Source: Dryococelus australis (Eukaryota; Arthropoda; Insecta; Phasmatodea; Phasmatidae). Taken from it: 64,000 nucleotides of DNA. How positions within the stretch are numbered: position 1 is the first letter of the stretch; each line of letters opens with the position of its first letter. The notes below the pieces were generated by a model. That model was not told where the DNA came from, searched no databases, and saw only the letters and a program-made list of their open reading frames with translations. The translations under genes and the position numbers were made by a program. The stretch lies in the NCBI GenBank assembly GCA_029891345.1, contig CM056993.1, positions 108,181,800-108,245,799 on the forward strand, in the 5' to 3' direction. Below are positions 40,956 to 55,273 of the stretch, piece by piece.

Positions 40956-41300
40956 AGTAGTAGGACCGGGGGGAGAGGAGGGGCTCAGATCAAAGAGATG
41001 CCGCTTTTATTAATCTGATTAACCAATTGATATCAAATTAATCGGATCAAAAAGTGTTAATTCGATTTTAATCCGATGGAATTTTTTTCGTTACTTCTTT
41101 ATCCTAATCCTATTTGATCGGATTGTTTCATCAAATAAATCTGATCTAATTTCTTTGATAGATTTTTGTGTGTATAGTTTTGTGTACTTTATTTTCTTTC
41201 TTTCGTTTTGGAATTTTGGGGGGGGGGGGGGCCCTCCGGTACGTCCGTACTCTTGGGGCTTTGGCGTTGTACTGGGGAGTGATGTGCTGGGGAAGGGGGT

Positions 41301-41376
41301 GTATATATATATATATATATATATATATATATATATATGTGTGTGTGTGTGTGTGTGTGTGTGTGTGTGTGTGTGT
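41301..41376. repeat. (TA)n(TG)n compound microsatellite
   Basis: About 18 TA then about 19 TG units. Only a short TATATATGTGTTG equivalent exists in the right arm, so it expanded after arm divergence. Confidence 0.95.
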
Positions 41377-42517
41377 TAAGTTTTGTGCAAGAGTGGCATA
41401 AGCATTTTTTTGGTGTCTTAGACATTTGTGGAAGATAAGATACTTTTTTGGTTATAGTAATTAAACAGAAAGAGAATACGACACAGTTAACACACTAGAG
41501 AAGTGTGGGAGCATTAAACTATAACGTACCCAGGCTATGGAAAGAAATAAAATGATTTTAATATACGTCCGTTGGGTCTGGTAGATTGCAGAATGAATGA
41601 CTCATAGTACGTATTTCTGGGAAATGAAATCTACCCCGTCTGATTAGATAAGCGTCTGGAAATTAATTGAACGGCTGAAGAAGTATAAAGAATAAACTCT
41701 TAACGAACACAACTACGTGACAAATGGATAAAAATTATGTTTATGATGCATGTACTAATATATAAATTACACTACTTGAATAAAAATAATAAAATCGCAC
41801 AGGCAACTCTTCCAAAACACGTCTGTCCGGCCGTGAGGTCAGTTAAGGAATGGCTTATGGACGTGGAGCTTGCGGCCTAGTTGAATACACAACTACGTGA
41901 ATAGATCAAACTTATATTTACGAATTATTTCCCTAGAAAACTGGTTTACCGCCCATTCTGATAACCTAAAGATGGAATACACCACATATTCAAAATACGC
42001 AAACTTACTAACGAACTGATTGGATACAGTACAACATACAACTTTTCACAATACGGAATGGTTTAGCTCTTCCACTTAACACGGAAAAATAAAGATTTCC
42101 AAACTCGCATTTTGAATTATACGTCAAACATATACTGTTTCCCTACGAATCACATTTTAACCAGACACAATAGCGTAATAGACATACACGTACATCTCCA
42201 TATTATTTGTACACATACCATAAATGATTTTAAAACATGTCCGTTCGTTGTGGAGTCTGATGTAGGAATGAGTTCAGCATAGCATTATGTCGGCCTATAA
42301 GCTGTGTGTTATAACAGAGGCAATGTCAAATGACGTTATGGGGGAAACTCCTCGACATTAAAATTTTACATCACAAATCAATATAAAATACGCTGTTTAC
42401 TAATTAAAGGGTTTATATTTCCTTATCAATCTAATATTAATGAGTTACTATCCACGAACAATATAGTCAAGTCTTTCTGAACATTTCACATGAAATTAAA
42501 AAAAAAAAAAAACTTAC

Positions 42518-43453
42518 CACATTGCCATTTTTGAAATTCACAATTTCACTTCCCTGGGAAAAATAAATAAATAAATAATTCACTCACAATATTTAACAAC
42601 ATATCCAGAGAACTGGTTTACCACTGCGAATAAAAAATGTTCCTATTCATAAGAAGAAGAATTCACTTTCAATTTTAACTTCCATTTAAAATTAGCGCGA
42701 GGTTCGGCTCGTGTAAAAGCCGACGATATAATATTGACGAAGATTAACTTAAAAATGGTAATCGCACCTACTTAATGAGAAAATATAATCACGATGTAAC
42801 CAAACGATATGAGTATACAAACTTCCTCGAAGAAAAGCTATGAAAACCAATATTAAGTTACTTAACACAAATGCAGCATATCGATTCGGTCTTAACACAC
42901 ACGAAATTTTTTTCTAAATAAATCAATGCTTATCAAAAGCATTGAAAAATATTGGTACGAAGACTGCGAGCAGATATGTCGAGCTAGATGTGAACCCGGA
43001 GCATATAATATCGCTTACCGAGAATCGTGGCTAGCAGTCAGGCGTATGATATGTCTAGGGTCTACGCTCTCCGAAGCCTGCTGGCCGTGGGTCAGCTAAC
43101 CCTGTATCATCCCACAGGACCCCGTCAGAATTCCGAACGCGGGTGGTGCGTGTATCCATGACAAAGCTTGTCGTCAAACTAAAGATGGCGACAGCCAGCG
43201 ATACGTGGTAACAAAGCTCCTCACTGCAACCCTCCCTCCTCCAACTCCATAGTCCAGAACGTATTTTCGGTTAGCTGGAACACAGTCTGCCTTTGCTAAG
43301 TCCCCCTCCCTCACCGAACGTGTCTTAGTGCACCACATCGCAGACTCTCCACCTGCCAAACACCCCATCGGGACAGCGAATTTTGAACCAACCCGAAAGC
43401 ACTGACTTGCTTGCAAAGTCCCCCTCCCCAAACCCCTCTTTTTCCACTCGCCA
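42518..43453 (-). promoter_or_regulatory. Candidate outward leader exons, left arm
   Basis: Exact mirror of the right-arm structure at 52,806-53,741: a GC-rich segment ending at a GTAAGC donor, then a 36-base mini-exon with an ATG between a CAG acceptor and a GTAAGT donor. Only sequence signals support this. Confidence 0.3.
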
Positions 43454-52155: not shown

Positions 52156-52230
52156 GAGAGAGAGAGAGAGAGAGAGAGAGGAGAGAGAGAGAGAGAGAGA
52201 GGAGAGAGAGAGAGAGAGAGAGAGAGAGAG
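52156..52230. repeat. (GA)n microsatellite
   Basis: About 75 bp, counterpart of the longer (CT)n in the left arm. Confidence 0.95.
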
Positions 52231-52805
52231 ATTGAATTGAAACTTTGGTAATAAGTAAATTTTAGTGTCTTAGAGAAGTCTATAAATAAAATACGTATTT
52301 TTATTTGCTATACACATATATTTAAATGTTTGGATATGTATGCACATCTCATGTCTCCCATCGTAATAGTTGAAACTTTCGTAAATGTGATACTTGTTTG
52401 AAAAAAATGGTGTTCTTTAACTCCCCATATATTTAGCGTGTGAAAATATCTCTTGTAGTTAGTTATAGTTTCCTCGACTAACTGTAATAAGTTGAATGGA
52501 AAACGGGATAAAATGCCTGCAAAGTTTACAGGATTAAACTTAAAAACAGGTTACTAGGAAAGGTTTATAAATTGTGATTGAAATTAATTATATTAAAAAT
52601 CATTTCTTGGATTAAAATATAATATTTCTTAATTTCGGGATTAAAATATTCGGTAAGACTGAATTCCTCGTGTTGAGGAATATAATTTTTATCAGCAGTA
52701 CTTGGGTAGCAAATTTTATTTCACTGGAAGTAATCCCTTGCTTATCGAAAAATAGGAGAAACTTTCCTTTCTGAACAAGTCAACGGACAGGCGAAAGTGA
52801 AAGTT

Positions 52806-53741
52806 TGGCGAGTGGAAAAAGAGGGGTTTGGGGAGGGGGACTTTGCAAGCAAGTCAGTGCTTTCGGGTTGGTTCAAAATTCGCTGTCCCGATGGGGTGTT
52901 TGGCAGGTGGAGAGTCTGCGATGTGGTGCACTAAGACACGTTCGGTGAGGGAGGGGGACTTAGCAAAGGCAGACTGTGTTCCAGCTAACCGAAAATACGT
53001 TCTGGACTATGGAGTTGGAGGAGGGAGGGTTGCAGTGAGGAGCTTTGTTACCACGTATCGCTGGCTGTCGCCATCTTTAGTTTGACGACAAGCTTTGTCA
53101 TGGATACACGCACCACCCGCGTTCGGAATTCTGACGGGGTCCTGTGGGATGATACAGGGTTAGCTGACCCACGGCCAGCAGGCTTCGGAGAGCGTAGACC
53201 CTAGACATATCATACGCCTGACTGCTAGCCACGATTCTCGGTAAGCGATATTATATGCTCCGGGTTCACATCTAGCTCGACATATCTGCTCGCAGTCTTC
53301 GTACCAATATTTTTCAATGCTTTTGATAAGCATTGATTTATTTAGAAAAAAATTTCGTGTGTGTTAAGACCGAATCGATATGCTGCATTTGTGTTAAGTA
53401 ACTTAATATTGGTTTTCATAGCTTTTCTTCGAGGAAGTTTGTATACTCATATCGTTTGGTTACATCGTGATTATATTTTCTCATTAAGTAGGTGCGATTA
53501 CCATTTTTAAGTTAATCTTCGTCAATATTATATCGTCGGCTTTTACACGAGCCGAACCTCGCGCTAATTTTAAATGGAAGTTAAAATTGAAAGTGAATTC
53601 TTCTTCTTATGAATAGGAACATTTTTTATTCGCAGTGGTAAACCAGTTCTCTGGATATGTTGTTAAATATTGTGAGTGAATTATTTATTTATTTATTTTT
53701 CCCAGGGAAGTGAAATTGTGAATTTCAAAAATGGCAATGTG
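52806..53741 (+). promoter_or_regulatory. Candidate outward leader exons, right arm
   Basis: A GC-richer segment (about 52,806-53,240) ends at a good donor (ATTCTCGGTAAGCGAT). Then 53,706-53,741 is a 36-base mini-exon between a pyrimidine-rich acceptor (ATTTATTTTTCCCAG) and a perfect GTAAGT donor, and it contains ATGGCAATGTG. Transcription would run toward the element end. An 85-codon frame in the GC-rich part (52,828-53,085) is duplicated in the other arm and has no known domain. No clear third exon was found. Confidence 0.3.
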
Positions 53742-55273
53742 GTAAGTTTTTTTTTTTTTTTTAATTTCATGTGAAATGTTCAGAAAGACTTGACTATATT
53801 GTTCGTGGATAGTAACTCATTAATATTAGATTGATAAGGAAATATAAACCCTTTAATTAGTAAACAGCGTATTTTATATTGATTTGTGATGTAAAATTTT
53901 AATGTCGAGGAGTTTCCCCCATAACGTCATTTGACATTGCCTCTGTTATAACACACAGCTTATAGGCCGACATAATGCTATGCTGAACTCATTCCTACAT
54001 CAGACTCCACAACGAACGGACATGTTTTAAAATCATTTATGGTATGTGTACAAATAATATGGAGATGTACGTGTATGTCTATTACGCTATTGTGTCTGGT
54101 TAAAATGTGATTCGTAGGGAAACAGTATATGTTTGACGTATAATTCAAAATGCGAGTTTGGAAATCTTTATTTTTCCGTGTTAAGTGGAAGAGCTAAACC
54201 ATTCCGTATTGTGAAAAGTTGTATGTTGTACTGTATCCAATCAGTTCGTTAGTAAGTTTGCGTATTTTGAATATGTGGTGTATTCCATCTTTAGGTTATC
54301 AGAATGGGCGGTAAACCAGTTTTCTAGGGAAATAATTCGTAAATATAAGTTTGATCTATTCACGTAGTTGTGTATTCAACTAGGCCGCAAGCTCCACGTC
54401 CATAAGCCATTCCTTAACTGACCTCACGGCCGGACAGACGTGTTTTGGAAGAGTTGCCTGTGCGATTTTATTATTTTTATTCAAGTAGTGTAATTTATAT
54501 ATTAGTACATGCATCATAAACATAATTTTTATCCATTTGTCACGTAGTTGTGTTCGTTAAGAGTTTATTCTTTATACTTCTTCAGCCGTTCAATTAATTT
54601 CCAGACGCTTATCTAATCAGACGGGGTAGATTTCATTTCCCAGAAATACGTACTATGAGTCATTCATTCTGCAATCTACCAGACCCAACGGACGTATATT
54701 AAAATCATTTTATTTCTTTCCATAGCCTGGGTACGTTATAGTTTAATGCTCCCACACTTCTCTAGTGTGTTAACTGTGTCGTATTCTCTTTCTGTTTAAT
54801 TACTATAACCAAAAAAAGTCGCTCTTCTCCCGTAAACATTTAAGACCCCCCCCCCCCCAAATGCTTATGCCACTCTTGCACAAAACTCAACACATATATA
54901 CCCCTTCCCCCAGCACATCACACCCCCATACAACGCGAGAGCCCCAAGGGCAAGGACGTGCCAGAGCAGCTCCCATCCCAAGAACGAAAGAAAATTAAGT
55001 ACACCAAACATATACAATTAAAAAATCCAATAAATAAATCGAAACTTTTTCATCAAAGGAATTTGATCAGATTTCTGTGATTAAATAATCCGATCAAATC
55101 GGATTATGTTACGGATTAACGAAAAAATTTCATCGGGTTAAAATCGGATTAACATTTTTGATCGGATTAAGAATTAATCCGATTAATTTCATATAAAAGG
55201 GTTAATCAGATTAATAAAAGCGGCATCCCCTTTGATCTGAAACCCTCCCCTCCCCTCTCCTGTACTTACTACT

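Follow-up and report, generated by a model that had tools for sequence, protein, structure and literature searches.

How can the two inverted arms of one transposable element be free of substitutions along most of their length and clearly diverged at their ends? The question is raised by a locus of Dryococelus australis. It lies in a stretch of 64,000 nucleotides (the window), which corresponds to C1:108181800-108245799 of a 3.4-Gb assembly, C-numbers being its contigs. Within a Tc1-like element of the window, we find an insertion of 14,318 bp (window positions 40956-55273) with AGTAGT...ACTACT ends, which an initial annotation had described as a giant palindromic Polinton derivative. Our analysis favours, with a probability that we put at about 60%, recent gene conversion between the arms; the element would be one of the dead palindromic Polintons that underwent it.

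Identity along the inverted arms

The ends, the length of 14.3 kb and the flanking hexamers AACAGC/AACATC were read in the sequence just as they had been annotated. The length of about 4.6 kb given for the arms (40956-45603 versus 50716-55273) was also right, but the arms are not uniform, and the pattern of identity along them had been missed. The element is divided as follows:

40956-41443, plus strand: outer left terminal repeat, starting, like the insertion, with AGTAGTAGG; diverged from its right counterpart
54817-55273, minus strand: outer right terminal repeat, ending, like the insertion, with CTTACTACT
41444-45518, plus strand: left-arm tract with no substitution against the right arm, its indels being confined to simple repeats
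50827-54816, minus strand: right-arm tract, partner of 41444-45518
45533-45603, plus strand: inner inverted homology outside the identical tract, 83% alike to 50716-50786
50716-50786, minus strand: partner of 45533-45603
45604-50715, no strand: centre (spacer) between the arms, without a recognised Polinton core gene

Over the outer 400 bp, 274 of 334 aligned bases are the same on the left and on the right (82%; 72% in BLAST, which includes gaps), and the outer 0.5 kb of the arms is about 82% alike, with some 18% of aligned bases differing. The outer mismatches end at 41443, and the inner ones begin at 45519. Between these limits, a BLAST alignment of 41456-45518 (4,063 bases) to the other arm gave no mismatches, 6 gap openings and 89 gap bases. 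The homology does not end with the tract: its final 71 bp continue inward at 83%, with 17% of bases differing. Diverged inverted homology is present in the window on both sides of the identical tract. Chance is excluded as the source of the likeness of the arms.

A separate observation concerns the inner junction. The stretch at the inner end of the left arm (45602-45733) forms a direct repeat with the right arm (50486-50545), and its orientation is opposite to that in the arms of the copies in C10, C15 and C17. We read this as an older rearrangement at the junction.

Other copies and the history of the arms

A genome search with the terminal 200 bp gave 627 candidate places, and arm probes gave 1,961, 994 and 1,248; 40 were scored in each case. 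Relatives were read in part in C2, C3, C5, C7, C8, C9, C10, C12, C14, C15 and C17 and at C1:85027944. Arms beyond the window were compared base by base in C10, C15 and C17 only, and equal scores elsewhere are an indirect sign of identity.

The same pattern along the arm is seen in C10, a near-complete palindrome of 12.4 kb whose arms measure 5.9 kb and are separated by a spacer of some 0.64 kb. Its arms differ by 12-19% per bin over the outer 2 kb (84% alike), then by 1 substitution in 3,500 bp, and then by 27% or more over a short stretch (about 73% alike). In C15 and C17 the comparison covers only some 730 bp at the open reading frame (ORF) of the arm, where 732 of 734 and 727 of 727 bases, respectively, are the same in both arms. 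These two copies are 75% alike, and their longest stretches are 86% (C15) and 80% (C17) like the window. Where no tract was seen, the longest stretch of left and right terminal inverted repeat (TIR) is 86% alike in C7, 83% in C3, 84% in C8 and 83% in C12; short left/right pieces reach 76% in C14 and 88% in C9.

Other loci point the same way indirectly. The arm ORF gave 7,683 candidate places, 150 of which were scored. Among these 150, 14 loci, including the window, carry a plus-strand ORF followed by a minus-strand one within 50 kb; the reverse order occurs at no locus and two rows are plus-plus, with 0.33 pairs expected by chance. Nine ORF pairs score within 0.15 bit of each other, and the pair at C6:40588416/40626429 was dropped, as its stops differ. 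Besides the window, 8 of 13 pairs have equal scores (C1:117046029, C3:165264356, C4:38477519, C10, C12, C14, C15 and C17). Stops are present in 6 of these 8 loci, with the same tally in both arms. A DNA probe found equal scores at C3:211480445/211484696 as well.

Conversion is thus supported by the order diverged, identical, diverged in the window and in C10, by near-perfect identity within C15 and C17 as against their distance from each other, by the 83-86% left/right likeness of copies without a seen tract, and by the equal paired ORFs, six of which share their stop tallies.

The main rival is a one-sided extension of the TIRs. Here the element had TIRs of 0.6-2 kb, a break in its left part was mended with the right TIR as template, and synthesis continued inward, so that an inverted copy of the right arm took the place of the left interior; the palindrome itself would then be recent. 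A model of this kind has been published for Galileo (PMC3573991), and it also accounts for the diverged outer ends. The structure of the family lends it some weight. In C7, C3 and C8 the TIRs measure 1.6-2 kb, left/right homology ends near window 42550-42562, and the interiors differ; C12 (4.2 kb, TIRs of about 0.65 kb) has one arm, as does C14, with an inner TIR piece. The internal sequence that is present in both arms of the window and of C10 is single in all five. Relatives fall into two structural classes, one with a single arm and one with an inverted arm pair, and the idea that the arm is single in all relatives was overturned by the inverted ORF pairs.

Three findings make the extension unlikely. 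A Galileo-type extension would have the identical tract end where the arm homology ends, and the 71 bp at 83% beyond the tract may suggest that the arms were long before the tract arose. So does C10, where outer divergence extends beyond the point at which the TIRs usually end, as far as about window 42830. Finally, inverted ORF pairs with unequal arms exist. Extension of the Galileo type may nevertheless have made the long-armed class earlier, and it could also account for the tracts if that diverged homology at the inner end were set aside.

The insertion site bears on the age of the element. Four features come from a search with the joined flanks:

40950-40955, no strand: left copy of the target duplication, AACAGC
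55274-55279, no strand: right copy of the target duplication, AACATC, 1 of 6 bases differing from the left
40806-40955, minus strand: left Tc1-like flank, 150 bases tested
55280-55429, minus strand: right Tc1-like flank, 150 bases tested

The query was the 300 bases of joined flank with a single copy of the 6-mer; 40 of 43 candidate places were scored. Of these, 2 are the halves in the window itself; among the remaining 38, 33 span the junction at 65-73% identity. This bears out the Tc1 gene split at the flanks. Frames are seen in the flanks; the name Tc1 is that of the initial annotation and seems to fit. The element, moreover, is not single-copy: a family with shared ends and empty Tc1-like paralogues were both found where the initial annotation had advised looking. 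The annotated 6-bp duplication stands as a repeat with empty paralogues, its copies agreeing at 5 of 6 bases.

The flanking 6-mers of C10 (CATTTC/CATTTA) likewise differ at 1 of 6 positions; C12 sits in a run of C, so its duplication is not callable. For an insertion no older than the tract, a difference at 1 of 6 positions would have a probability of 0.4% for one element at the 95% bound. Because of this difference, an insertion older than the identical tract would fit both the window and C10.

The same differences tell against a palindrome made at birth, in which protein-primed replication copied one end into both arms of a defective genome, which was then recently inserted. In its favour, protein-primed replication with jumping back agrees with the end motifs of Mavericks (PMC8097293). 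Panhandle replication of this sort is disfavoured, however, as the outermost parts should be the most alike and are the least alike, and stops common to both arms differ in tally between loci. We regard such an origin as very unlikely.

An assembly artefact, in which reads of one arm were used for both, deserves mention because long near-identical inverted repeats are hard to assemble and our evidence comes without reads. Yet the arms differ in simple-repeat lengths (the 6 indels and 89 bases given above) and by 18% in their outer parts. The pattern also occurs at several loci, and a background of 80% should be easily told apart. An artefact is accordingly hard to credit.

Under the preferred reading, conversion between arms, the history would run as follows. 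A non-autonomous Polinton/Maverick copy with very long inverted arms entered the Tc1-like element with a 6-bp duplication. Its frames are decayed and its ends about 18% apart, and this drift probably preceded conversion. Later, one arm would have served as the template that rewrote the other in place. The resulting conversion tract, some 4.1 kb long, comes close to the end of the arm that faces the spacer and stops 0.5 kb before the end of the element. A break or a stalled fork near the centre may have allowed an arm to pair with its inverted partner and copy outward, as in Y-chromosome palindromes. The tracts of the window and C10 both nearly reach the spacer, which suggests a central starting point, but two cases are too few to prove polarity.

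Several points weigh against this reading. Five of the 13 paired ORF loci are unequal (in C2, C5, C6, with two loci, and C11), as are inverted pairs met by DNA probes at C8:48197639/48200288, C3:28865221/28876438, C3:20226704/20237787 and C2:332073820/332102542. The set of scored places favours equal pairs, since both arms must score high, and the figure of 8 in roughly 135 loci should not be read as a rate. The outer probes of C17 failed to align with each other, so the outer limit of its tract may be close. The short TIRs of C7, C3 and C8 may be the older state, the inner diverged homology amounts to only 71 bp in the window, and everything comes from one assembly, without reads or alleles. 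There may also have been recent copying between loci, given one place 97% like the window.

That place, C17:22567557-22567903, matches window 44542-44887 (346 bp), where other listed copies reach 84-89%; identity between copies is mostly 75-89%. It may be a young copy or an inter-locus tract.

Kinship and gene content

Ends of the (AGT)2//(ACT)2 type, terminal inverted repeats and a 6-bp target duplication are all present in the window element. AGTAGT starts 12 ends of nine copies; since the motif was the criterion by which they were chosen, the count is descriptive only. It is not seen at the right ends of C14 and C8, and the part of C3 that was read did not contain a right end.

The PolB profile PF03175 matched the genome at 54 places, with 91 of 6,287 candidates scored. 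One match, at 80.8 bits, belongs to the C9 relative, which has pieces in common with the window arm and an AGTAGT end, AGTAGTAGGGGCGGG, 7.8 kb upstream. In C5, a double jelly-roll (DJR) capsid domain (PF21738; 28.9 bits against a cut-off of 27) lies about 8.6 kb from a family-type end. This copy also carries a homologue of the central finger frame described below and an outer arm with an end of this family, and we take the three to be one element. The search for relatives with the same ends and core genes, which had also been recommended, yielded PolB in C9 and a capsid domain in C5. Another C5 frame (L037:9632-9898), which looks like a Polinton protease, gave nothing with Pfam and was not used.

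The window copy itself has neither a protein-primed PolB nor a DJR major capsid protein that could be found with 1,115 ORFs from relatives or, for the capsid, with Pfam. Pfam on 11 of the 13 centre ORFs of at least 60 amino acids gave no Polinton domain, and on 10 centre ORFs no domain at E<=0.01, with no queries aimed at integrase, packaging ATPase or protease. No scored PolB and arm-ORF places lie within 25 kb of each other, both scored lists being small parts of the candidates. A search for phage relatives of the terminus gave no match. Two spots in the centre resemble C9. Window 45997-46090 weakly matches an ORF near the 3' end of its PolB (E=0.001), and 49493-49814 matches, at 71%, sequence directly upstream of that gene; the latter has no convincing frame and is not claimed as a PolB piece.

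Because the element has Polinton-type ends and a 6-bp flanking repeat, and relatives with such ends have PolB or a DJR capsid, its status as a non-autonomous Polinton/Maverick derivative, not a complete member, is supported. That part of the initial annotation holds; the part in which the derivative carried finger genes as cargo does not. The frames concerned are these:

45130-45551, plus strand: left-arm ORF, with a C2HC finger (45130-45210) and an acidic part (45207-45551) in different frames
50692-51215, minus strand: right-arm ORF, with a finger (51135-51215) and an acidic part (50692-51138), showing the same frame break
46511-46855, minus strand: central finger frame; the C5 copy and the centre of C17 have homologues

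Finger frames are indeed present in both arms. To call them genes in duplicate was generous: they are decayed, and their doubling simply follows that of the arms. The finger and the acidic part do not share a frame in either arm, about 109 of the 150 listed ORF places carry stops (41, by eye, have no internal stop), and the ratio of nonsynonymous to synonymous substitution rates (dN/dS) is 0.40-1.29 in six comparisons among four copies. With the central frame, whose Pfam finger scores are under the cut-offs, these findings led us to reject fingers that were kept or gained as cargo. A duplicate held by selection, for which one could cite the right-arm acidic frame, open over 149 codons, is the least credible of the explanations considered. 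A comparison of the arm ORF with the protein collection gave 8 candidates, none of which reached E<=0.001. The ORF resembles a family gene that has decayed and that owes its second copy to its place in the arm. Nor are long arms with a gene inside, which the initial annotation set apart from the usual TIR-MITE or Polinton plan, unique to this copy, since other loci carry inverted ORF pairs too.

Other features were noted in passing. ATCCGAT occurs 3 and 5 times, and GATTAA 4 and 8 times, in the subterminal stretches 40956-41306 and 54894-55273, where single-base shuffles give an expectation of at most 0.41; both words are possible binding sites. At 61500-63900 (minus strand), PolB-like pieces are 60-75% alike to ORFs of relatives over many stretches, and an Endonuclease_7 domain (PF02945, 6.1e-7) lies at 63447-63896; together they mark a second, decayed Polinton remnant. 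The piece at 22205-22588 is 26-44% identical to ORFs that lie upstream of PolB at a number of Polinton loci. A DDE_Tnp_4 transposase piece at 18603-19007 (minus strand; PF13359, 1.2e-11) is presumably PIF/Harbinger-like. Finally, 55594-55749 and 5235-5389 are two copies, 75% alike, of a dispersed repeat whose head looks tRNA-like; ARAGORN found no tRNA in 54000-57000.

Comparison with known systems

In the vertebrate survey (PMC8097293), (AGT)2//(ACT)2 is the commonest end motif of Mavericks and the target duplications are 6 bp long. The window element shares both, and its size is within their range of 12.7-24.6 kb. Unlike intact vertebrate Mavericks, whose TIRs measure 46-1,447 bp, it has arms of 4.6 kb with a gene piece in each and no recognised core gene.

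With Galileo of Drosophila mojavensis, it shares a variable TIR length, internal sequence taken in as inverted copies and the non-autonomous state of long-TIR copies, for which exchange and conversion have been proposed (PMC3573991). Galileo belongs to another superfamily (P), however, and has TIRs of 18-1,250 bp that are described as 98-100% alike within a copy, whereas the outer ends of the window element are 18% apart. What is new here is the distribution of identity along the arms. Neither a palindromic Polinton nor arm conversion within one was named in the titles or abstract openings searched, a scope outside which full texts and most subscription papers lie.

If the conversion reading is true, each copy holds its own control, the drifted outer ends, beside a recent event, the inner tract. 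Arm identity would then not date such insertions, and a genome-wide set would allow the rate, length, direction and GC bias of inverted-repeat conversion to be estimated in one animal genome.

There is also a likeness to human Y palindromes such as P6, in which inverted arms are kept alike by conversion in kilobase tracts; the mean minimum tract is 2,068 bp and the longest minimum 9,023 bp (PMC3723533). The present palindromes, by contrast, are transposon copies scattered over many loci, and they were inferred from a single assembly rather than from population data. Tentatively, long-armed dead Polintons could form a genome-wide set of scattered palindromes in which centre-anchored conversion rewrites the inner arms again and again, long after insertion, and the outer ends go on drifting. 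They would then be an analogue of the Y palindromes with an internal clock in each copy.

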